From Tropicimonas sediminicola (GTDB lineage Bacteria; Pseudomonadota; Alphaproteobacteria; Rhodobacterales; Rhodobacteraceae), in contig NZ_FZOY01000001.1 of NCBI RefSeq assembly GCF_900188335.1, positions 62,001 through 126,000 of the forward strand: a DNA stretch of 64,000 nucleotides. Direction: 5' to 3'. Below, piece after piece: positions 1,558 through 12,410 of the stretch (positions are counted from its first letter, which is position 1; each line of letters starts with the position of its first letter). The position numbers were made by a program, and so were the translations under genes. The notes beneath the pieces are model-generated. The model was not told the DNA's origin, did no database searches, and saw nothing but the letters and a program-made list of their open reading frames with translations.

Positions 1558-3150
1558 ATGAAACAGACGCGGACATTTACCGCAGCGCTCATGTGTGCCG
1601 GCGTGCTCGCCGGTGCGGCTTCGGCGCAGACACTCGTATATTGCTCCGAGGGTTCGCCCGAGGGCTTCGACCCGGCGCTCTACACCTCGGGCACGACCTT
1701 CGATGCCTCCGAGCACCCGATCTACGACAAGCTCGTGCTTTTCGAGACCGGCAGCACCAACGTGGTTCCGGGCCTCGCCGAGAGCTGGGAAGTGTCGGAG
1801 GACGGGCTGGAGTACACCTTCAACCTCCGTCAGGGCGTCAAGTTCCACAGCAACGACGCCTTCACGCCGACCCGCGACTTCAACGCCGACGACGTGATCT
1901 TCTCGTTCGAGCGTCAGTGGAAGGACGACAACCCCTACAAGGAAGTCTCCGGCGGCACCTGGGAATATTTCGACGGCATGTCGATGCCCGACCTGCTGAA
2001 GGAGATCGTCAAGGTCGACGACTACACGGTGAAATTCGTGCTGAACCGGCCCGAGGCGCCGATGATCGCGAACCTCGCCATGGGCTTCGCCACGATCGTC
2101 TCCAAGGAATACGCCGACGCGATGCTGGAGGCCGGCACGCCCGAGCAACTGAACCAGGCGCCGATCGGCACCGGTCCGTTCAAGTTCGTGGCCTACCAGA
2201 AGGATGCCGTCATCCGCTACGTGCGCAATGACGACTACTGGCGCGAGCCGGCGGCCATCGAGAACCTGGTCTTCGCGATCACGCCCGATGCCTCCGTGCG
2301 CTACCAGAAGCTGCAGGCCGGCGAATGCCACGTGATGCCCTATCCGAACCCGGCCGACATCCAGGCGATGAAGGACAACCCGGACATCAACGTGATGGAG
2401 CAGGAAGGCCTGAACGTGGGCTACCTCGCCTACAACACGACCCAGGCGCCCTTCGACAACCCGAAGGTCCGCAAGGCGCTCAACATGGCCATCGACAAGC
2501 AGGCCATCATCGACGTCGTGTTCCAGGGCTCCGGCCAGATCGCCAAGAACCCGATCCCGCCGACCATGTGGTCCTACAACGACGCGATCGAGGACGATGC
2601 GTTCGATCCGGAAGCCGCCAAGGCCGCACTCGAGGCCGAGGGCGTCACCGACCTCAGCATGAAGGTCTGGGCGATGCCTGTGCAGCGTCCGTACAACCCG
2701 AACGCCCGCCGCATGGCCGAGCTGATCCAGGCCGACATGGCCAACATCGGCGTCGACGTGGAGATCGTCTCCTACGAGTGGGGTGAGTATCTCAGCCGCT
2801 CGCGCGAACTCGACCGCGACGGTGCGATCCTGCTCGGCTGGACCGGCGACAACGGCGACCCGGACAATTTCCTCGCCGTTCTGCTCGGCTGCGACGGTGT
2901 CGAGAACTCCAACCGTGCCCAGTGGTGCTACGAGCCCTTCGAGGAAGTGATCCAGAAGGCCAAGATCACCACCGACGTCGCGGAGCGCACCGCGCTCTAC
3001 GAAGAGGCGCAGGTCATCTTCAAGGAGCAGGCGCCCTGGGCCACCATCGCCCACTCGGTCGTCTTCATGCCGATGCGTCCCGAAGTGGAGGGCTACAAGG
3101 TCCACCCGCTCGGTGGCCACATCTTCTACGGCGTCAGCATCGCCGAATGA
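1558..3150 (+). CDS. dppA: Dipeptide ABC transporter, periplasmic substrate-binding protein
   Basis: This 530-residue family-5 solute-binding protein captures dipeptides in the periplasm for the DppBCDF importer. The start at 1558 is chosen because it gives a clean Sec signal peptide (MKQTRTF, hydrophobic core, GAASAQ cleavage region) and has AGGGAG 7 bases upstream; the frame is open further upstream but without a signal. The mature N-terminus TLVYCSEGSPEGFDP is the hallmark of DppA. Further family blocks are GLAESWEVSEDG and LRQGVKFHSND. It is followed by a GC-rich hairpin and then the rest of the operon, a common arrangement that raises binding-protein mRNA relative to the permease genes. 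Confidence 0.95.
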   Translation: MKQTRTFTAALMCAGVLAGAASAQTLVYCSEGSPEGFDPALYTSGTTFDASEHPIYDKLVLFETGSTNVVPGLAESWEVSEDGLEYTFNLRQGVKFHSNDAFTPTRDFNADDVIFSFERQWKDDNPYKEVSGGTWEYFDGMSMPDLLKEIVKVDDYTVKFVLNRPEAPMIANLAMGFATIVSKEYADAMLEAGTPEQLNQAPIGTGPFKFVAYQKDAVIRYVRNDDYWREPAAIENLVFAITPDASVRYQKLQAGECHVMPYPNPADIQAMKDNPDINVMEQEGLNVGYLAYNTTQAPFDNPKVRKALNMAIDKQAIIDVVFQGSGQIAKNPIPPTMWSYNDAIEDDAFDPEAAKAALEAEGVTDLSMKVWAMPVQRPYNPNARRMAELIQADMANIGVDVEIVSYEWGEYLSRSRELDRDGAILLGWTGDNGDPDNFLAVLLGCDGVENSNRAQWCYEPFEEVIQKAKITTDVAERTALYEEAQVIFKEQAPWATIAHSVVFMPMRPEVEGYKVHPLGGHIFYGVSIAE

Positions 3151-3163
3151 TCTCAACCGTGGT

Positions 3164-3190
3164 CCGGGGCGCTCAGGCGCCCCGGTCCCT
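3164..3190 (+). terminator. Intercistronic stem-loop after dppA
   Basis: A 9-bp perfect stem (3164-3172 with 3177-3185) with loop TCAG is followed by a short pyrimidine run TCCCTCTTTC. It sits between dppA and the next gene of the same operon, so it probably acts as a partial terminator or as a 3' stabiliser of dppA mRNA rather than as a full stop. Confidence 0.6.
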
Positions 3191-3210
3191 CTTTCGGGTT
3201 CCCTGACAAT

Positions 3211-4302
3211 ATGGACCGCTACAGCGACTATCGCCGCATCGCACGCTCGCTTGGCGCGGATGCGGTCGCGCTCGTTCCGGGTGCGAATTTCGAGCGCCTT
3301 TTCAATGCCTCCTTCCACAGCCACGAACGACCGCTGGTCGTCGTGATCCCCGTCGAGGGCGCGCCGGCGGCCATCGTGCCGAACCTGGAGCTCCGGAGCT
3401 TCGAGCCGCTTGGCTTCGAGGGCGAGGTTTTCGACTGGCGCGACCAGGACGGCCATTCCGAAGCCTTTGCCGCGCTCGCCCGGCACCTGCCGCTGAAAAC
3501 GCTCGCGGTGGAGGGCCAGGTGATGCGGGTCTTTGTGCACCACGCGCTGGTCACGGCGATCCCGGGCCTGCAGGTGCTGGATGCCGAGCGCGAGATCTCG
3601 GCGCTGCGCCGCGTCAAGACCGCCGACGAGATCGCCACGATGGAATGCGCCATCGCCACCTCCGAGAAGGCGCTGGCCGAGGTCCTGGAGCAGGTGCGCA
3701 TCGGCCAGACCGAGGCCGAGGTGCAGAGCTTCCTCACCCAGGCGCTGTTCCGTCACGGGGCCGAGGATCACGCCTTCGGCCCGATCGTCGCAGGCGGCGA
3801 CAATTCCGCGCGCCCCCACGCCCATGCGCGCGTCGACTACGCGCTGCGCGACGGCGACTGCCTGCTGTTCGACTTCGGCGCCCGGATCGGCGGGCTCAAC
3901 GCCGACATCACGCGGACCTTCTTCGTGGGTCATGCGCCGGACGCGGCGCAGGAGGTCTATGAAACGGTGCTTTCCGCCAACCTGCGCGGGATCGAGGCGA
4001 CCCGGCCGGGCGTCACCGCCCACGACATCGACGACGCCACTACCTCGGTCCTCGAGGCCTCCCGCTTCGCCGACCGGATCCGCCACAAGACGGGCCACGG
4101 GCTTGGCCGGGCGGTGCACGAGGCGCCGCAGGTGATGCGCGGCAACCACGAGATCCTTGAACCCGGCATGGTCATCACCGTGGAGCCTGGGCTATACGCC
4201 ATCGGTGACCTCGGGATCCGGATCGAGGACGACGTCCTCGTCACGGACACCGGGTGCCGCTCGTTGACGACCTTTCCAAAGGACCTGACGGTAATCGGAT
4301 AA
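3211..4302 (+). CDS. M24-family metallopeptidase (Xaa-Pro aminopeptidase-like)
   Basis: This 363-residue cytoplasmic protein has a creatinase-type N-terminal domain (about 1-130) and an M24 pita-bread catalytic domain. All five metal ligands are visible: Asp221 (FDFGA), Asp232 (NADITR), His296 (TGHGLGR), Glu325 (TVEPGLY) and Glu339 (RIEDDV). It should therefore be an active dinuclear-metal peptidase, most likely removing an N-terminal residue before proline or splitting Xaa-Pro dipeptides. It lies between dppA and dppB, and its stop overlaps the dppB start by one base (TAATG). This argues that the imported peptides are processed by it. The precise specificity (PepP or PepQ type) is not resolved. 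Confidence 0.9.
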   Translation: MDRYSDYRRIARSLGADAVALVPGANFERLFNASFHSHERPLVVVIPVEGAPAAIVPNLELRSFEPLGFEGEVFDWRDQDGHSEAFAALARHLPLKTLAVEGQVMRVFVHHALVTAIPGLQVLDAEREISALRRVKTADEIATMECAIATSEKALAEVLEQVRIGQTEAEVQSFLTQALFRHGAEDHAFGPIVAGGDNSARPHAHARVDYALRDGDCLLFDFGARIGGLNADITRTFFVGHAPDAAQEVYETVLSANLRGIEATRPGVTAHDIDDATTSVLEASRFADRIRHKTGHGLGRAVHEAPQVMRGNHEILEPGMVITVEPGLYAIGDLGIRIEDDVLVTDTGCRSLTTFPKDLTVIG

Positions 4303-5309
4303 TGCTGAATTTCCTCCTGTCCCGCCTGCTCACCTTCGTCCCGACCTTCATCGGGGTGACGCTGATTTCCTTCTCCTTCATCCGCGTGCTGCCGGGCGAT
4401 CCGATCATCGTGATGGCCGGCGAGCGGGGCATGAGCGAGGAACGTTACGCGGAACTGCAGGCGCAGTTCGGCTTCGACAGGCCGCTCCTGGTCCAGTACT
4501 GGGATTACATGACCGGCGTGCTTCAGGGCGACCTCGGCAACAGCTTCGTCACCAAGAAACCGGTGTTCGACGAGTTCTTCGCATTGTTCCCGGCGACGCT
4601 GGAGCTGTCGATCTGTGCGATGATCTTCGCCGTGGTCCTCGGCCTGCCCGCCGGCGTCATCGCGGCGATCAACCGGGGCAAGCTGTTCGACCGGACGCTG
4701 ATGTCCACCGCGCTGGTCGGCTACTCGATGCCGATCTTCTGGTGGGCGCTGCTGATGATCATCGTCTTCTCCGGCTGGCTCGGCTGGACGCCGGTCTCGG
4801 GGCGGATCTCGCTGATCTATTTCTTCGACGACGTCACAGGCTTCATGCTGATCGACTCGCTGCTCTCGGGCCAGAAGGGCGCCTTCTCCTCGGCGGTGAA
4901 CCACCTGATCCTTCCGACGATCGTGCTGGGCACCATCCCGCTTGCGGTGATCGCCCGCCAGACCCGCTCGGCCATGCTGGAGGTGCTGAGCGAGGATTAC
5001 ATCCGCACTGCCCGCGCCAAGGGCCTGCCGCCCTCCCGCGTCACCTATATCCACGCGCTGCGCAACGCGCTGATCCCCGTGGTCACGGTGATCGGCCTGC
5101 TGGTCGGCACGCTGCTGGCCGGCGCCATCCTGACCGAGACGATCTTTTCCTGGCCGGGCATCGGCAAGTGGATGGTCGACTCGATCTATCGCCGCGATTA
5201 CCCGGTGGTGCAGGGCGGTCTGCTGCTGATCGCCGTGATGGTGATGATCGTGAACCTGACCGTCGACGTGCTCTACGGTTTCATCAACCCGAAGATCCGG
5301 AAGTCCTGA
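4302..5309 (+). CDS. dppB: Dipeptide ABC transporter permease
   Basis: This 335-residue inner-membrane permease forms the translocation channel with DppC. The start at 4302 begins MLNFLLSRLLTFVPTFIGV, the standard first membrane segment of DppB, and overlaps the upstream stop by one base. The conserved block GDLGNSF follows the periplasmic loop. The cytoplasmic EAA coupling region is SEDYIRTARAKGLPPSRV, followed by HALRNALIPVVTVIG. About six membrane segments are evident. An extra hydrophilic loop around residues 165-195 (SGRISLIYFFDDVTG region) is a little longer than in short homologues. Confidence 0.94.
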   Translation: MLNFLLSRLLTFVPTFIGVTLISFSFIRVLPGDPIIVMAGERGMSEERYAELQAQFGFDRPLLVQYWDYMTGVLQGDLGNSFVTKKPVFDEFFALFPATLELSICAMIFAVVLGLPAGVIAAINRGKLFDRTLMSTALVGYSMPIFWWALLMIIVFSGWLGWTPVSGRISLIYFFDDVTGFMLIDSLLSGQKGAFSSAVNHLILPTIVLGTIPLAVIARQTRSAMLEVLSEDYIRTARAKGLPPSRVTYIHALRNALIPVVTVIGLLVGTLLAGAILTETIFSWPGIGKWMVDSIYRRDYPVVQGGLLLIAVMVMIVNLTVDVLYGFINPKIRKS

Positions 5310-5310
5310 C

Positions 5311-6201
5311 ATGGCCGAGGCAACTGCAAACGTCGAGCGGCCGGGCCGCCTCAAGGAATTCTGGTTCTACTTCCGCGAGAACCGCGGCGCGGTGTTCGGG
5401 CTCTGGGTGTTCCTCGCCTTCCTCTTTGTCGCGATCTTCGCGCCGCTGATCGTTCCGCACGATCCCTCCGCGCAGTTCCGCGACCACCTGCTGCAGCCGC
5501 CGGCGTGGCAGGAGGGCGGCGACTGGTCCTTCGTGCTCGGCACCGACGCGCTCGGACGCGACCTGCTGTCCCGGCTGCTGATGGGCGCACGCTATTCCTT
5601 CTTCGTGGGGATTGTCGTCGTCGTCGTGGCGGCAACGGGGGGCATCACCGTGGGCCTTCTCGCCGGCTTCGCGCCGAAATGGCTCGACTCGATCATCATG
5701 CGGATCATGGACGTGATCCTCGCCTTCCCCTCGCTGCTGCTGGCGCTGGTCCTGGTCGCGATCCTAGGCCCGTCACTGCTCAATGCGATGATCGCCATCG
5801 CGATTGTGCTGCAGCCCCATTACGTGCGCCTGACACGGGCCTCGGTGATGTCGGAGCGCAACAAGGATTACGTTACCTCGGCCCGCGTGGCGGGTGCCGG
5901 GCGCTGGCGGATGATGTTCATCACCGTGCTCCCGAACTGCCTTGCCCCGATCATCGTGCAGGCGGCGCTGTCCTTCTCCACAGCGATCCTCGACGCGGCG
6001 GCGCTCGGCTTCCTCGGCATGGGCGCGCAGCCGCCGACACCGGAATGGGGCACCATGCTCGCAGAGGCGCGGGAGTTCATCCTGCGGGCCTGGTGGGTCG
6101 TCACCTTCCCCGGCCTTGCGATCCTGGTCACCGTGCTGGCCATCAACCTGATGGGCGACGGTCTGCGCGACGCGCTCGATCCCAAGCTGAAGAGGAGCTG
6201 A
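5311..6201 (+). CDS. dppC: Dipeptide ABC transporter permease
   Basis: This 296-residue partner permease starts one base after the dppB stop. An N-terminal cytoplasmic stretch leads into the first membrane segment (AVFGLWVFLAFLFVAIFAP). It then has the typical LGTDALGRDLLSRLL block of OppC/DppC proteins. The EAA-type coupling loop is NKDYVTSARVAGAGRWR, and the C-terminal end DALDPKLKRS is also typical. It heterodimerises with DppB and contacts the DppD/DppF ATPases. Confidence 0.94.
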   Translation: MAEATANVERPGRLKEFWFYFRENRGAVFGLWVFLAFLFVAIFAPLIVPHDPSAQFRDHLLQPPAWQEGGDWSFVLGTDALGRDLLSRLLMGARYSFFVGIVVVVVAATGGITVGLLAGFAPKWLDSIIMRIMDVILAFPSLLLALVLVAILGPSLLNAMIAIAIVLQPHYVRLTRASVMSERNKDYVTSARVAGAGRWRMMFITVLPNCLAPIIVQAALSFSTAILDAAALGFLGMGAQPPTPEWGTMLAEAREFILRAWWVVTFPGLAILVTVLAINLMGDGLRDALDPKLKRS

Positions 6202-6205
6202 CGAC

Positions 6206-7183
6206 ATGGCGCTTCTCGAAGTCCGCAACCTTTCGGTCGATTTCGCCACCACCTCGGGCACGTTCCGTGCGGTGGACGGGTTCGACCTGACGCTCGACAA
6301 GGGCGATATCACCGCGGTGGTCGGCGAATCCGGCTCCGGCAAGTCGGTGGCCTTCCTCGCGATGATGGGCCTGCTGCCCTGGACCGCGACGATCACCTCC
6401 GACCAGCTCACCTTCGACGGCAACGACCTGCGCGGCATCTCGCCCCGCAAGCGGCGCCAGATCATCGGCAAGGACATGTCGATGATCTTCCAGGAGCCGA
6501 TGACCTCGCTCAACCCGTGCTACACGGTCGGCTTCCAGATCAAGGAGGCGCTGCGGATCCACCTCGGGATGGACCGCAAGGAGCGCCACGCCCGTGCCAT
6601 CGAGCTGTTCGAGCAGGTTGGCATCCCGGCGCCCGAGACGCGGCTCTCGGCCTTCCCGCACCAGATGTCGGGCGGCATGAACCAGCGGGTGATGATCGCC
6701 ATGGCGATCGCCTGCAAGCCCAAGCTGCTGATCGCCGACGAGCCGACGACCGCGCTCGACGTCACGATCCAGGCGCAGATCCTGGAGCTTCTGACCTCGC
6801 TGCAGGAAGAAACCGGGATGGCGCTGGTCCTGATCACCCACGATATGGGCGTGGTGGCGGAGACCGCGGAGCGCGTGTCGGTTCAATATGCCGGTCAGAA
6901 GGTGGAGATGCAGGACGTGCGCTCGCTGTTTGCGACGCCGCATCATCCCTACACCGCCGCGCTGCTGGCCGCACTGCCGGAGCGCGCCACCACCAAGCAC
7001 CTGCCGACGATCCCCGGCGTGGTTCCGGGCCAGTTCGACCGCCCGGCCGGCTGCCTGTTCAGCCCGCGCTGCGCCCATGCCGACGAGCGTTGCCGCACCG
7101 TCGCGCCGCCCGTCGGCGGGCCGGAGCTCGGCTTCGCCCGCTGCCATTACCCGCTCAACGTGGCCCAAGAGGAAAGCGTATGA
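6206..7183 (+). CDS. dppD: Dipeptide ABC transporter ATP-binding protein
   Basis: This 325-residue ATPase has Walker A GESGSGKS (residues 40-47), signature MSGGMNQR and Walker [13 protein letters not shown]. The C-terminal oligopeptide-transporter domain contains four cysteines (GCLFSPRC, then the CRT and RCHYPL segments). In characterised DppD/OppD proteins these cysteines can hold a 4Fe-4S cluster. It forms the motor with DppF and overlaps it by four bases (ATGA). Confidence 0.95.
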
Positions 7184-8133
7184 CCGAGCCAGTCCTCATC
7201 GCCGAGAACCTGACGCAGGAATACGTCCTGAAAGGCGGCCTGTTCGGTCAGGACCGCATCGTGCGCGCGCTGACCGGCGCGTCCTTTTCCCTCGAGGCGG
7301 GCAAGACACTCGCTGTGGTTGGCGAATCCGGCTGCGGGAAGTCGACGCTGGCGCGCTGCATCACCATGATCGAGGAGCCGGTCGCGGGCAGCTTTGTGCT
7401 CGACGGGACGAAAGCCGGGCCGGACACCCACGACAAGCTGCGCACCACCGTTCAGATCGTCTTCCAGGACCCCTACGGCTCGCTCAACCCGCGGCAGCGC
7501 TGCGGCCAGATCCTCGAGGAGCCGCTGGTGATCAACCGCCCCGAGATGTCCGCCGAGGAGCGGACGCGGCGGGCGCGGGAGATGCTGGAACTCGTGGGCC
7601 TGCGGCCCGAGCATTTCGACCGCTACCCGCACATGTTCTCGGGTGGCCAGCGGCAGCGGATCGCCGTGGGCCGGGCGCTGATGCTGGAGCCCAAGGTGCT
7701 GGTGCTCGACGAGCCGGTCTCGGCGCTCGACCTGTCGATCCAGAGCCAGATCCTGAACCTGCTGGTCGACCTGCAGGAGCGGCTGGGGCTTGCCTACCTT
7801 TTCATCAGCCACGACCTGTCGGTGGTGAAGCACGTCGCCGACGATGTCATCGTGATGTACCTCGGCCGGCCGGTCGAAGTGGGCAGCAAGGAGGCGATCT
7901 TCAGCCACCAGCGGCATCCCTACACCAAGGCGCTGCTCTCGGCGACGCCGATTGCCGACCCGACCCTGCGCAAGGAGCGGATCAAGCTGGTGGGCGAATT
8001 GCCGTCGCCGGTGAACATCCCGCCCGGCTGCCCGTTCAGCCCGCGCTGCTGGAAGGCCACCGACAAGTGCCGGACCGAGCGTCCGGAACTGGAAGGCCAG
8101 CCGCACGCCGTGGCCTGCCACTTCCCGGAGTGA
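7180..8133 (+). CDS. dppF: Dipeptide ABC transporter ATP-binding protein
   Basis: This 317-residue second ATPase of the importer starts at the ATG overlapping the dppD stop. It carries Walker A GESGCGKST (48-56), signature FSGGQRQR, Walker B VLVLDEPVSALD and the H-loop region FISHDLSVV. The C-terminal cysteine set (GCPFSPRC, then KCRTERP and ACHFPE) parallels DppD. It is the last gene of the operon. No obvious rho-independent terminator follows in the 102 bases before the next gene, so some readthrough into it is possible. Confidence 0.95.
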   Translation: MTEPVLIAENLTQEYVLKGGLFGQDRIVRALTGASFSLEAGKTLAVVGESGCGKSTLARCITMIEEPVAGSFVLDGTKAGPDTHDKLRTTVQIVFQDPYGSLNPRQRCGQILEEPLVINRPEMSAEERTRRAREMLELVGLRPEHFDRYPHMFSGGQRQRIAVGRALMLEPKVLVLDEPVSALDLSIQSQILNLLVDLQERLGLAYLFISHDLSVVKHVADDVIVMYLGRPVEVGSKEAIFSHQRHPYTKALLSATPIADPTLRKERIKLVGELPSPVNIPPGCPFSPRCWKATDKCRTERPELEGQPHAVACHFPE

Positions 8134-8235: not shown

Positions 8236-9531
8236 GTGCGGACACAGCCAAAGGAGGTCCCGATCATTTCCGGTCGGCCCATATCGACTTTGTCCAGGTC
8301 GGCGCGTGCCCGGGATTTCGTGGCCGCGTTCGATCTTTGGTGGCAGGATCCCGGCGCCGAGGGGTTTCCCTTCGGTTCCGCCGTCGATGCCAGCCATGAG
8401 GTTGGCAAGCAGTTCCTGCCTGAAGAAATGATCGGCTGCCTTGCCCGGTTGCGCGAGGCGCGGTCCCGCGTTGGTGGGGGCGCCGAGGCGCAGCGGTTGC
8501 TCGACGGCTTCCTCGACTGCGCGCTGGACAAGCACGAGGGCCGCTACGACTACGCCACCTATTGCGCCCTGAAGGTTCTCGACTTCCCGGACGACGGTAC
8601 CGGTTTCCACGATCCCGCAGGGGTGCTCGAACAGCGCGATCTCGGTCTGCTCGCGCTGATGGGCGATTTGCTCGGCTTTGAACTCGACGCGCTGGAAGGC
8701 CGGGCGGAGATCCTGCCGCTGATGCGCCCCGGGGCGGAGCTTGGGCGGCGCCGACTGCGCCTGACACGGGCGGCGCTGCGCCCGTCGCTCGACCGGGCCG
8801 GGCTGGCGATCCGCTCGGACGAGCCAGAGGACGCGGCGCGGAAAGTGCTCGAGGCGATCGGACCACGGGTTTCGCAGCAGATGCGGCGCCGGCTCGCCGC
8901 CAGCATGCTGCCGGTTCACGTCGTGCACGACGAATACCTGTTCCTGCGGGTGCTGCAGGGCTTCGAACTGAGCTTTGCCTGGATCGCCGTCTCGCTCCGG
9001 CAGGCCATCGACGCCATGCCATCTGCGCCCGCGGCGTCGCTCGGCTGGCTGCACCTCGCAAACCAGCTCCTGCGGGAGGTGTCCCGGCTCTTTCCGCTGA
9101 TCGGCTCGATGCAGCCCGCGGCCTTTCACGAGTTCCGCCGCTATACCGAGGGCGCCAGCGCCATCCAGTCGGCCGGCTACAAGACGGTCGAGGCGCTGTG
9201 CCGCCGGCCCGATGCGGAGCGGCTGGACTCGCCCGCCTACCGCTCGGTGCCGGAGGTGCAGGCCGCCGTGCAGGAAGGCCTGCCCACGCTGGAGGATGCG
9301 CTGGCGGCGATGAACGAGGATCCCGAAGCGGATGTTGCCCTGCGCGGGGAGATCGAGGCGGAGCTTGCCGCCTTTGCCCGCCAGTTGCTCCGCTGGCGGC
9401 AGGCGCATTACCAGATCGCCCGCCGTTTTCTCGGCAACCGCTCCGGCACGGGCTATACCGAGGGGCTTCCCTATCTCGACAAGGGCCGGTCCGTCCCTGT
9501 GTTTCGCGCCGCCAGCCTCCGCGAGACCTGA
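8236..9531 (+). CDS. Divergent tryptophan 2,3-dioxygenase-superfamily heme protein
   Basis: This 431-residue protein (from the GTG) has an unrecognised alpha-helical N-terminal half of about 200 residues. Its C-terminal half aligns by eye to the canonical KynA encoded 2 kb downstream. Corresponding residues are HDEYLF (231-236) to HDEMLF, Arg301 (FHEFRR) to the substrate-carboxylate arginine, His391 (RQAHYQ) to the heme-ligating histidine, and Thr405 (SGTGYT) to the substrate-binding threonine. The spacing His391-Thr405 is exactly the 14 residues seen in KynA. The distal histidine of true dioxygenases is Leu240 here. The family also contains PrnB-, MarE- and SfmD-type enzymes with other chemistries, so the reaction is unknown but heme binding is likely. 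It converges on the kinase gene with 13 bases between the stops. The start is uncertain: GTG 8236 or non-canonical ATT 8266. Confidence 0.75.
   Translation: MRTQPKEVPIISGRPISTLSRSARARDFVAAFDLWWQDPGAEGFPFGSAVDASHEVGKQFLPEEMIGCLARLREARSRVGGGAEAQRLLDGFLDCALDKHEGRYDYATYCALKVLDFPDDGTGFHDPAGVLEQRDLGLLALMGDLLGFELDALEGRAEILPLMRPGAELGRRRLRLTRAALRPSLDRAGLAIRSDEPEDAARKVLEAIGPRVSQQMRRRLAASMLPVHVVHDEYLFLRVLQGFELSFAWIAVSLRQAIDAMPSAPAASLGWLHLANQLLREVSRLFPLIGSMQPAAFHEFRRYTEGASAIQSAGYKTVEALCRRPDAERLDSPAYRSVPEVQAAVQEGLPTLEDALAAMNEDPEADVALRGEIEAELAAFARQLLRWRQAHYQIARRFLGNRSGTGYTEGLPYLDKGRSVPVFRAASLRET
8251..8257 (+). promoter_or_regulatory. Strong ribosome binding site inside the annotated 5' end of the TDO-like gene
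   Basis: AAGGAGG is a near-perfect anti-Shine-Dalgarno match but lies 15 bases inside the only GTG-initiated version of the downstream frame. Eight bases after it is an in-frame ATT (8266), preceded by an in-frame ATC (8263). No ATG, and no suitably spaced GTG or TTG, follows. Either the start is a rare ATT/ATC codon or the match is fortuitous. Confidence 0.4.
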
Positions 9532-9544
9532 GCCGGGCGCCACC

Positions 9545-10162
9545 TCAGAAAATTCGGTCGCAGGCCCCGATGGCGGCGTTAATCCGGCTCGCATTGGCGA
9601 GGTCGTTGGAGCGGGCCCGGGCCTCCGCCGCATCGGGGGGCAGGCCATGATCCAGCCAGCGGCGGATCAGCCGTTCCAGCAGGACATCCTCGCCGACCTT
9701 CAGGAAGCAGCTGAAATCCCAAAGGGGTGCGAGCTTGTCCCAGGGACTTTCGGCGAAACACAGGTAATTGCCCTCGACCACGGCGATCCGGTCCTGCGGG
9801 CCGATCTCGACCGCACCGGCGATGGATATGTCGCGCTCGCGGTCGAAGGTGGGCAGGATGACCTGCGGTTCCTCGCGCAGGCGCCGGACGGCATGGACAA
9901 AGCCCTCGCCGTCGAAGGTCTCCGGCGCGCCCTTCCGGTGCAGCAAGCCGCGGGCGGTGAGCAGGGCGTTGTCGAGGTGGAACCCGTCCATCGGCACCAG
10001 GACCGCCGCCGCGCCGTGCTGGTTCAGCCTGTCGGTGAGGCGGGCGGCAAGCGTGGATTTGCCGGAGGCGGGCGGGCCCGCGATGGCGATAAGGCTGCGC
10101 ACCCCGCTTGGCCGGACCGACAGCGCGATTTCCGCTAGCTCCGTCAGCCGATCCTCGTCCAT
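9545..10162 (-). CDS. FrcK-like nucleoside/sugar kinase (PRK/uridine kinase fold)
   Basis: This 205-residue P-loop kinase has Walker A GPPASGKST at residues 29-37, and the substrate-side segment MDGFHLDN at about 59-66. The conserved downstream blocks are DREHD-like TFDRERD and VVEGNYLC. This pattern belongs to the pantothenate/uridine-kinase-like group that includes FrcK, the kinase of the rhizobial fructose transport locus. The gene is transcribed divergently from a ROK regulator, as expected for a sugar locus, but no sugar transporter genes are present here. The substrate is inferred only. Confidence 0.75.
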   Translation of the reverse strand: MDEDRLTELAEIALSVRPSGVRSLIAIAGPPASGKSTLAARLTDRLNQHGAAAVLVPMDGFHLDNALLTARGLLHRKGAPETFDGEGFVHAVRRLREEPQVILPTFDRERDISIAGAVEIGPQDRIAVVEGNYLCFAESPWDKLAPLWDFSCFLKVGEDVLLERLIRRWLDHGLPPDAAEARARSNDLANASRINAAIGACDRIF

Positions 10163-10311: not shown

Positions 10312-11532
10312 GTGGTGACGACACCGGAACAGCCGGCCTCTCGCAATTGGACAAGTTCGGTGCGCGGCTCGAACCAGAGCGGCTTGCGGGCGCATAACGA
10401 ACGTCTCGTGCTGTCGCTGTTGCGCCGCGAGGGACCGATGGCAAAGGCGGAGATCGCGCGGGTCTCCGGGCTGTCGGCGCAAACCATCTCCGGCATCATG
10501 CGACGGCTGGAGGAGGACGGGCTGCTGAAACGGGGCGAGCCGATCCGCGGCAAAGTCGGCCAACCTTCGATGCCGATGCACCTCGCTCACGATGGCGCCT
10601 ATTTCCTCGGGCTGAAGATCGGTCGCCGCTCGGTCGACCTGATCCTGATCGACTTTCTCGGCAAGGTGCTGGGGCGGGTCCACCGGACCCATCCCTATCC
10701 GACCCCGGACGCCGTCATGGGCTTTGCGCTCGAGGCGCTCGGAGAACTGCAGGCCAAGCTTCCGCCAGAGAAGCGGCCGCGTATCGCGGGTCTGGGCATC
10801 GCCATGCCGTTCCGGCTCTGGGACTGGGCGGTCTCGATCGGTGCGCCGCTGGACGACATGGAAGCCTGGCGCGACCGGGATATCCGCACCGAACTGGCCG
10901 ACCGCCTCGATTTCCCGGTCTACCTTTGCAATGACGCCTCCGCGGCCTGCGGGGCGGAGCTGGTGTTCGGTACGGGAGAGCGGCCGCAGGTGTTTCTGCA
11001 TTTCTTCATCGGCTATTTCATCGGCGGCGGGCTGGTTCTGAACGGCAATCTCTATACCGGGCGGACCGGCAATGCCGCGGCGCTTGGGTCTCTGCCGATC
11101 CCGGGGCCGGCAGGCACCTATGCGCAGCTCGTCGATGTCGCCTCGCTTTGCGTGCTGGAGCAGGAGGTCCGCGCCGCAGGCAGGCCGACGGAAAGCCTCT
11201 GGAACCCGCCCGAGGGCTGGGACGTGCCGCCCGCGATCCTCGACACCTGGATCAGCGAGGCCTCCGCGAGCCTGGCTTATGCCATCGCCGCCGCGGCTTC
11301 GGTCATCGATTCCGAGGTGGTGATGATCGACGGCTGGCTTCCGGTCGACGTGCGCCGCAGGCTGGTGGAAGGCACCGACCGTGTCCTGCAGGACCTCGAC
11401 GTCGGCGGCATCGAGAAGCCGAACGTGCGCCCCGGCACCATCGGACAGGACGCAAGGTCCCTCGGCGCGGCGAGCCTGCCGCTGTCCGATCGGTACCTGC
11501 TCGACCTCAACGCGATGATGCTTCCCTCCTGA
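10312..11532 (+). CDS. ROK-family transcriptional regulator (FrcR-like)
   Basis: This 406-residue protein has an N-terminal winged helix-turn-helix (about 24-80, including MAKAEIARVSGLSAQTISG) joined to a ROK sugar-kinase-like domain. The ROK fold is recognisable from LGLKIGRRSVDLIL, CNDASAACGAE and YFIGGGLVLNG. The zinc-binding Cys cluster of many ROK proteins is absent; the equivalent stretch reads LPIPGPAGTYAQL. Such regulators typically sense sugars. A second GTG three bases downstream (10315) is an equally good start. It is divergent to the FrcK-like kinase, which is its most likely target. Confidence 0.85.
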   Translation: MVTTPEQPASRNWTSSVRGSNQSGLRAHNERLVLSLLRREGPMAKAEIARVSGLSAQTISGIMRRLEEDGLLKRGEPIRGKVGQPSMPMHLAHDGAYFLGLKIGRRSVDLILIDFLGKVLGRVHRTHPYPTPDAVMGFALEALGELQAKLPPEKRPRIAGLGIAMPFRLWDWAVSIGAPLDDMEAWRDRDIRTELADRLDFPVYLCNDASAACGAELVFGTGERPQVFLHFFIGYFIGGGLVLNGNLYTGRTGNAAALGSLPIPGPAGTYAQLVDVASLCVLEQEVRAAGRPTESLWNPPEGWDVPPAILDTWISEASASLAYAIAAAASVIDSEVVMIDGWLPVDVRRRLVEGTDRVLQDLDVGGIEKPNVRPGTIGQDARSLGAASLPLSDRYLLDLNAMMLPS

Positions 11533-11615: not shown

Positions 11616-12410
11616 ATGTCGAGCGGCGAGGATTTCAGCTACGTCAGCCATCTTGCGCTGGACCGCCTGCTGTCGGCGCAGCAGCCGGTGTCGGGCAGGC
11701 ATGACGAGATGCTCTTCATCATCCAGCACCAGACCAGCGAACTCTGGATGCGGCTGGTCATTGCCGAGCTGGAGGCCGCCCGGTCCGGGCTGCGCGCCCG
11801 CGACCTGCGCCGAGCGCTCAAGGCGCTCGGGCGGACGGGCGTGGTGTTCGATCAGCTTGTCAGCAGTTGGGACGTGCTGCGCACCCTGACCCCGGTGGAT
11901 TTCGCGAGCTTCCGCGGCGAACTCGGCACGGCGTCGGGCTTCCAGTCCTTTCAATACCGGATGATCGAGTTCATGCTGGGCAACCGGTCGGTCGAGATGC
12001 TGGAGCCGCATCTTGGCGACCCGGCCGTCGCCGACACGCTGAACGCCGAACTGGCGCGCCCCTCGGTCTACCAGGAGGCGCTCGGGTGCCTCGGTGCGGA
12101 ACTGGGCGTCGACCTGTCGGGGGCCTGTATCCCTCGCAGCGATGCCCACGCGCCCGACCCGGACGTGCTGCGGGCCTGGGGCGCTGTCTATGCCGACCCC
12201 GACCGATACCCCGCGCTCTTCGACCTCGCCGAGGCGCTGGTCGGGATCGAGGACCGGTTCCGGTGCTGGCGGTTCAACCATGTGACAACGGTGGAGCGGG
12301 TGATCGGCTTCAAGCGCGGCACCGGCGGGACGAGCGGCGTGAGCTACCTGCGCCGGATGCTCGACGTGGAGCTTTTCCCCGAGCTTTGGCAGGTGCGGAC
12401 GACGATCTGA
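11616..12410 (+). CDS. kynA: Tryptophan 2,3-dioxygenase
   Basis: This 264-residue cytoplasmic heme dioxygenase opens the indole ring of L-tryptophan to N-formylkynurenine. It has HDEMLFIIQHQTSELW with Phe34 and distal His38, the carboxylate-binding Arg100 (FASFRGELG) and the SGFQSFQYR block. The proximal heme ligand is His222 (RFNHVTTVERVIG), and Thr236 lies in KRGTGG. All correspond to the characterised Xanthomonas enzyme. AAAGAGG precedes the ATG. Kynureninase and kynurenine formamidase genes, often adjacent, are not in this window. Confidence 0.95.
   Translation: MSSGEDFSYVSHLALDRLLSAQQPVSGRHDEMLFIIQHQTSELWMRLVIAELEAARSGLRARDLRRALKALGRTGVVFDQLVSSWDVLRTLTPVDFASFRGELGTASGFQSFQYRMIEFMLGNRSVEMLEPHLGDPAVADTLNAELARPSVYQEALGCLGAELGVDLSGACIPRSDAHAPDPDVLRAWGAVYADPDRYPALFDLAEALVGIEDRFRCWRFNHVTTVERVIGFKRGTGGTSGVSYLRRMLDVELFPELWQVRTTI

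Follow-up and report, generated by a model that had tools for sequence, protein, structure and literature searches.

A long tryptophan dioxygenase-like heme protein of Tropicimonas sediminicola belongs to a distinct subfamily whose genes are often paired with short TDO/MarE-type genes

The window, i.e. the whole stretch of 64,000 nucleotides of Tropicimonas sediminicola DNA that was analysed, carries a gene for a long heme protein of the tryptophan 2,3-dioxygenase (TDO)/MarE superfamily, in which the axial heme ligand and the carboxylate-binding arginine are conserved. The protein belongs to a distinct subfamily with an N-terminal domain that database searches do not recognize, and the long genes of this subfamily are often paired with a short TDO/MarE-type gene. 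The long protein may be a histidine-ligated heme oxygenase whose substrate is the tryptophan-derived amino acid of its short partner and which oxygenates it a second time, a reading that we place just short of an even chance and for which the reaction is inferred. A pathway link between the long protein and its partner is given a probability of a little under one half, and any named reaction less. The gene and its two domains are as follows, with residue numbers of the long protein counted from the GTG at 8236 here and below:

8236..9531, + strand, gene of the long TDO-like heme protein: open reading frame of 431 amino acids counted from the GTG, Pfam PF03301
8317..8904, + strand, N-terminal domain, residues about 28-223: conserved motifs, no significant Pfam or PDB match
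8911..9504, + strand, TDO-like heme domain, residues about 226-423: Pfam, PDB and profile matches

The membership of the TDO superfamily that had been proposed in the first-pass annotation was borne out by profile searches. Pfam PF03301 (Trp_dioxygenase) matched the long protein with 52.1 bits (E 8.7e-14), over the curated cut-off of 34.9, and was the only family matched in a Pfam search up to E 10. The TDO equivalog model TIGR03036 of NCBIfam gave 61.3 bits, which is 329 bits short of its cut-off of 390.7. In sequence searches of the PDB, TDO was found at E 9.7e-7 with the long protein alone; with a 37-row profile of the long family TDO was found at 7.4e-27 and MarE at 1.6e-4 (the 37-row alignments and profiles, A3 and A4, leave out L124, L087 and L013). 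The reading frame 8236-9531 was the sole match at E <= 0.001 in its own 5.17-Mb genome. In the named database records inspected, genes of the long type bear the label 'tryptophan 2,3-dioxygenase family protein' or 'hypothetical protein'.

The residues of the heme domain are listed with their occurrence in 40 aligned homologues, which came from the window genus, the Streptomyces family, Micromonospora and Nonomuraea and included L087, a sequence on a very long branch:

8941..8943, + strand, Phe236 (TDO/MarE Phe51): 40/40
8953..8955, + strand, Leu240, position of the distal His: Leu in 31, Ile in 8 and Val in 1 of 40
9136..9138, + strand, Arg301 (MarE Arg118), the carboxylate Arg: 40/40
9145..9147, + strand, Thr304, position of the pocket Leu (MarE Leu121): 40/40
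9406..9408, + strand, His391, position of the axial heme ligand: 40/40
9448..9450, + strand, Thr405 of the GTGYT loop: Thr in 32 and Ser in 8 of 40

HMM alignments placed the segment HDEYLFLRVLQGFEL without a gap on HxEMLFIxQHQTxEL, and because of this Leu240 occupies the position of the distal His, as had been claimed earlier. The residue was Leu, Ile or Val in all 40 homologues, and Leu (seven) or Ile (one) in eight further long sequences. An aliphatic residue in place of the distal His is thus, in the sequences compared, a fixed trait of the subfamily. In the same alignments the TDO positions were occupied by Phe236, Arg301, Ser308, His391 and Thr405, whose first-pass numbering from GTG 8236 proved right. 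His391 and Thr405 are separated by 14 positions in the long protein as well as in the KynA of the window, the identity of spacing that had been noted before. Invariant in the 40 long sequences were Phe236, Arg238, Gln241, Glu244, Arg301, Thr304, Gly306, Ala309, Ser312, Glu319 and His391, and Ser308 was conserved in 38/40. Thr304 and Ala309 correspond to Leu120 and to Gly125 of TDO, the latter being the Gly of the distal loop. In MarE it is Leu121 that lines the indole pocket (PMC11904535), at the place where the long family has Thr304. As both the aliphatic residue at 240 and Thr304 are conserved, the pocket would consistently be without an indole-NH partner and would have an added polar group. 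Such a pocket speaks for a substrate that differs from tryptophan with a free indole NH. That the axial His, the carboxylate Arg and the loop Thr are conserved speaks for an active oxygenase with an amino acid as substrate. Behind the axial His, the long family has a loop that reads GTGYT, GTGGT, GSG or other variants; according to PMC12312684, this loop can shift MarE and TDO between mono- and dioxygenation.

From the lost distal His the first-pass annotation had deduced a heme enzyme that acts on an amino-acid-like substrate with chemistry other than plain ring cleavage. The retained axial His, carboxylate Arg and loop Thr favour the first part of this claim, but the argument from the distal His is weaker than had been assumed. 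Thr is present at this position (FLVTTQ or FLITTQ) in 7/7 other PF03301 proteins retrieved from Streptomyces-family genomes (L091-L095, L103, L104), and therefore not every bacterial member of the TDO family has the distal His. Besides, the H55A variant of MarE is described as giving more product than its parent despite an about 20-fold weaker binding (PMC11904535). Because of these two observations, changed chemistry cannot be read from the missing distal His alone. Stronger arguments for altered chemistry are the new invariant residues, the unmatched N-terminal domain and the pairing with TDO/MarE-type genes. These data also bear on the view that the long protein is a stand-alone 2,3-dioxygenase of tryptophan (or of tryptophan peptides) that works with the aliphatic distal residue, the pairing then reflecting a shared regulon only. 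In IDO a serine (Ser167) serves as the distal residue, which makes it like the long protein in having a residue other than His there. The residues of the heme domain are as in TDO, PF03301 proteins with a distal Thr exist and MarE H55A is active (PMC11904535), yet a second plain dioxygenase beside KynA would be redundant, Thr304 and Ala309 are invariant changes and the protein lies 329 bits below the TDO cut-off. A stand-alone dioxygenase is regarded as improbable.

The about 200 extra N-terminal residues reported in the first-pass annotation were confirmed ahead of the HDE motif. They form a conserved domain with GKxF, LDK and YxxY motifs, Asp144 (40/40) and Arg173 (37/37). A search of 37 members against Pfam gave no significant match (eight families each matched one member, with a best E of 0.037), and the PDB gave no match to the domain up to E 10. 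Two AlphaFold2 models, of the window lead and of a Streptomyces lead, each built from five sequences, had a mean pLDDT of 69.9 and 70.7 and a pTM of 0.74 and 0.75, respectively. The core of the heme domain was modelled with confidence and much of the N-terminal domain and the C-terminus with low confidence. Structure prediction had been named earlier as a check of the fold, and in Foldseek searches of the PDB the TDO chains were the top matches of both models, with modest best E values of 1.9e-3 and 3.8e-5 and TM-scores of about 0.4 by query length and about 0.6 by target length. MarE came after TDO in both lists; IDO chains and PrnB (2v7i) appeared in that of the first model only. The outcome that had been named as refuting the claim, a predicted structure lacking a TDO-like helical bundle, was thus not obtained.

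TDO is therefore the best PDB match of the long protein by sequence and by model, and shares with it the fold of the heme domain, Phe51, the carboxylate Arg, the axial His and the Thr of the GTG loop. The long protein differs from TDO (KynA) in its distal Leu/Ile/Val, the pocket Thr for Leu, the distal-loop Ala for Gly, the additional N-terminal domain and the low equivalog score. MarE, a 2-oxindole-forming monooxygenase (PDB 8vyy, 9ca3), shares the superfamily; however, the long protein lacks the distal His55 and the DATG and SLGGR loops that are the MarE motifs (PMC11904535) and has Leu240, EGASA, GTGYT and the N-terminal domain instead. In four loci a MarE-like protein is encoded by the short partner gene and not by the long gene. 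IDO1 and PrnB resemble the long protein in their longer chain with an extra N-terminal part, but it does not match their own Pfam families, the structural match is weaker than that to TDO, and PrnB was matched in sequence only at E 2.2 with profile A1. With regard to closure of the pocket in cis by an N-terminal small domain, as in IDO/PrnB, the N-terminal domain was modelled with low confidence and had no PDB match up to E 10. TyrH and SfmD are histidine-ligated heme hydroxylases of amino acids from natural-product pathways (PMC11791213), and in this they resemble the enzyme proposed here; no such chain was among the PDB profile matches listed up to E 10.

As judged by sequence, the long proteins are a distinct subfamily of the TDO superfamily, with their own N-terminal domain and their own invariant residues. 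A scan of the genome collection yielded orthologues in Tropicimonas and Aliiruegeria and one Streptomyces homologue. The profile search of the own family (E 1e-12) gave matches in 5/394 genomes, of which two, both from the window genus, had the long gene and the other three TDO-size matches only, and that of the family of Streptomyces sp. AP-93 (E 1e-15) in 46/394 genomes; 21 of the latter matches reached E 2.6e-90 or better. At class level, 1/385 alphaproteobacterial genomes (G000 only) was matched at E 1e-40 and 10/394 genomes of the Streptomyces class at E 1e-60. Four records of the plasmid collection covered at least 80% of the long query, and no relative of the long protein was found in the viral-contig collection scanned. 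Among the sampled alphaproteobacteria the long gene occurred only in the window genus, in 6/9 of its genomes. In the tree, the alphaproteobacterial long proteins formed one clade (100/100) inside a mostly actinobacterial paired clade, nearest to a Streptomyces-family sequence, a join that is weak (85/78); several other clades also have moderate support. Because the window gene nests among actinobacterial sequences and is confined to the window genus among the alphaproteobacteria sampled, the simplest reading is that it was probably transferred from actinobacteria. The literature searches listed no paper that describes the long subfamily or its pairing with a short gene.

A short TDO-type gene was located near the long gene in 24 of 49 distinct loci and the other 25 were without a partner, as scored within flanks of mostly 9-10 kb a side and with simple ORF calls in unannotated loci (flanks were shorter in L146, under 1 kb on one side, L142, 4.35 kb in total, and L078, 5.4 kb on one side; weaker Streptomyces-family matches below G653, E 1.5e-26 and higher, are left out). 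Divided by clade, pairing was observed in 20/21 loci of the clade of the window (support 95/92), in 4/4 of the MarE-type clade and in 0/24 elsewhere. L087 and its relative L146, both unpaired, are in the locus count and were not placed in the tree. The unpaired exception in the clade of the window was L145 (genome G775), which has a long branch and an unsure placement; pairing there is therefore not absolute. The long gene of G459 was also unpaired. Seven loci were added after the pairing hypothesis had been set, and 3/3 in the clade of the window were paired and 4/4 outside it unpaired. Two of the three new pairs have identical heme domains, so that they represent nearer two independent cases. 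The distal His was kept in 24/24 short partners. The pairing argues for a tryptophan-derived substrate of the long protein.

In some loci the long gene has a 4-base overlap with the short gene or with the PLP enzyme gene, and in G008 the spacing is 17 bases. Streptomyces sp. NBC_01006 and NBC_01343 have a short PF03301 gene beside the long one with 4-base overlaps. Six Streptomyces-family loci and a Nonomuraea cassette combine the short gene, a class-V PLP enzyme, the long gene, an FAD monooxygenase, a class-IV aminotransferase and a PF04199 cyclase. In two different genomes (L138 and L139) the long heme domains are identical over 204 columns and accompanied by the same short-PLP-long-cyclase set, which suggests a recent transfer of the cassette. 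A plasmid of Micromonospora zamorensis (L122, 12422-20679) carries in order genes for a nitric oxide synthase (NOS), a globin, the short protein, a PLP enzyme, the long protein and an MFS protein; no P450 was present among the 40 annotated features listed for this plasmid, whose gene table is incomplete. The NOS and globin genes beside this cassette might point to a NO-using heme pathway. In four NRPS-like clusters the partner was MarE-like, as found for two by PDB search (E 8e-77 and 3e-81) and for two by similarity to those.

The unpaired long genes of L086 and L090 lie in a cluster with three ATP-grasp-type genes and radical SAM and amidohydrolase genes, two of the three ATP-grasp-type proteins of L086 being L-amino-acid ligases by Pfam. 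LysW-type argC and aminoadipate kinase genes are near the long genes of L084, L089 and L121. If the family as a whole oxygenated a non-indole amino acid (derived from tyrosine, lysine or another source), with the TDO link particular to some clades, this would agree with the ligase and radical SAM, LysW-type argC/kinase or NRPS-like genes near unpaired long genes that have no TDO gene within the stretch examined. However, the window gene belongs to a mostly paired clade, and apart from a general peptide importer nothing observed in its surroundings points to a different amino acid. A family-wide non-indole substrate is considered distinctly improbable.

The surroundings of the long gene in the window are as follows:

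1558..8133, + strand, dipeptide importer region upstream of the long gene: dppA (about 1558-3150), M24 peptidase (3211-4302), dppB, dppC, dppD and dppF (about 7180-8133)
9545..10162, - strand, nucleoside/nucleotide-kinase-like protein, between the long gene and kynA
10312..11532, + strand, ROK/NagC-type regulator, between the long gene and kynA
11616..12410, + strand, short partner, a diverged KynA of 264 amino acids: distal His kept, TDO equivalog score below the cut-off, His at the XcTDO Tyr27 position

The order dppA-M24-dppBCDF-long-...-kynA was conserved in 5/6 genus loci compared, and the sixth, G001, has long-kinase-kynA without dpp; kynA is also present in a seventh genome, L013. The KynA of the window, 2.1 kb downstream of the long gene, and two paired orthologues scored 334.7, 288.9 and 323.7 bits with TIGR03036 (cut-off 390.7). 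The unpaired KynA of G004, a genome without the long gene, scored 394.6 bits, over the cut-off, and adjoins a kynureninase. The position of XcTDO Tyr27 (YxxHL) was occupied by His in 7/7 paired alphaproteobacterial KynAs and by Tyr in 4/4 unpaired ones. Between species (window versus L057-L060), identity to the window was 50-55% for the long protein, 61-67% for KynA, 80-91% for the Dpp proteins, 73-79% for the M24 peptidase and 61-74% for the ROK regulator. Thus long and kynA diverge faster than dpp and M24, and the ROK regulator about as fast as kynA. A non-catalytic role of the long protein as a heme or amino-acid sensor might be read from the nearby regulator genes (ROK in the window, a GbdR-like AraC-type regulator upstream in L060); against the conservation of the active site in 40/40 homologues and the biosynthetic contexts, such a role is highly improbable.

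Kynureninase was encoded on another contig in the six genus members with the long gene. In nine genus members only weak matches to kynurenine formamidase were obtained (4/9, none over the cut-off). 3-HAO was not found in 9/9 genus genomes, with a model that detects one in G535 (1/15 searched; 0/14 control genomes). From the distant kynureninase, the weak formamidase and the absence of 3-HAO it follows that no pathway is linked on paper. Replacement of kynurenine 3-hydroxylase by the long protein, feeding NAD synthesis, is unsupported in the window genus as 3-HAO is absent in 9/9. Kynureninase does not track the pair, as it is present in 9/9 genus members, including two without a PF03301 match. 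The long protein is not a 'MarF' of maremycin either, marF being a methyltransferase gene according to PMC8398661. The pathway link in the window is also weakened by the separation of the pair by the opposite-strand kinase gene and the regulator gene.

In TDO, the pocket of one subunit is completed by the N-terminal helices of another. Long and short protein could likewise be one enzyme, a hetero-oligomer to which the long chain may contribute a structural domain or a lid. The 4-base gene overlap and the 20/21 pairing in the clade are in line with this. So is the derived His that the alphaproteobacterial partners have in place of Tyr27, since the MarE residue at this position belongs to the adjacent subunit and reaches the pocket (PMC11904535). 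On the other hand, the long chain keeps the full set of heme and carboxylate residues, the position-27 His is not common to the actinobacterial partners and 25/49 long genes have no nearby partner, so that the fold does not need one. Supply of the distal His in trans by the N-terminal helix of the partner is not general for the same reason, the position-27 His being found only in alphaproteobacterial partners. Moreover, the partners are of different lineage: in their tree the actinobacterial and MarE-like partners grouped together (98/98), and the alphaproteobacterial ones with alphaproteobacterial TDOs in the other half. An AU test rejected shortAlpha and shortA as one clade (p-AU 0.025) and did not reject all partners together (0.07). 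A hetero-oligomer is thus considered unlikely. As the partners come from at least two lineages, it is doubtful that all pairs carry out one and the same reaction.

In the preferred reading, that of a second oxygenation, the long protein would be a TDO/MarE (HDAO) superfamily heme oxygenase acting on an amino acid. O2 would bind on the His391 heme, the occupancy of which we infer, Arg301 would hold the substrate carboxylate and the GTGYT loop the backbone end. In the pocket the indole-NH partner (His55) would have given way to an aliphatic residue and the hydrophobic Leu to Thr304. The substrate would be tryptophan-derived and handled by the short TDO/MarE-type partner (in the window KynA, 11616-12410). 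It might undergo a second, non-ring-cleaving oxygenation, e.g. hydroxylation of a 2-oxindole- or kynurenine-type amino acid, after, or beside, the step of the partner, the order of steps being presumed. In the window organism it may enter as a peptide via the linked Dpp importer and M24 peptidase. This second oxygenation is proposed because of the conserved heme and carboxylate residues in combination with the changed pocket and the partner, the loss of the distal His alone not being decisive. If it is true, the long proteins would form a branch of their own within a small superfamily of heme oxygenases, with their own domain and pocket and often paired with TDO/MarE-type enzymes. How two histidine-ligated hemes share a single tryptophan would then be open to direct test, and so would the choice between mono- and dioxygenation, which PMC12312684 presents as a live question for MarE and TDO. 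The long genes also point to biosynthetic clusters that are unexplored, among them one that includes a nitric oxide synthase, and they warn that a KynA gene need not be catabolic.

A bolder version is conceivable, in which a short His-bearing and a long His-less protein with a new N-terminal domain constitute a two-enzyme heme cassette. Tryptophan would be oxidized in two consecutive single steps, for instance to 2-oxindolylalanine and then to dioxindolylalanine, and not in one ring-cleaving dioxygenation. The cassette would have its origin in the biosynthesis of actinobacteria and would have passed from them to a marine alphaproteobacterium, in which the long gene would operate with a diverged alphaproteobacterial KynA copy behind a peptide importer; in Micromonospora, next to the NOS gene, the same heme may use NO for nitration. 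As a whole this is fairly unlikely.

Two further features concern the start of the long gene:

8250..8258, + strand, Shine-Dalgarno sequence AAAGGAGGT: perfect, inside the GTG-start reading frame, in the same place in relatives
8263..8268, + strand, probable real start, ATC 8263 or ATT 8266: Shine-Dalgarno sequence upstream and aligned relatives

Because a perfect Shine-Dalgarno sequence lies within the GTG-start reading frame and the relatives L006, L012 and L013 have a GTG at the place aligned with 8263/8266 of the window, the true start is probably ATC 8263 or ATT 8266 and not GTG 8236. At the shared start position the orthologues have GTG, ATC or GTC; the start codon of the long gene therefore seems to drift toward weak codons.
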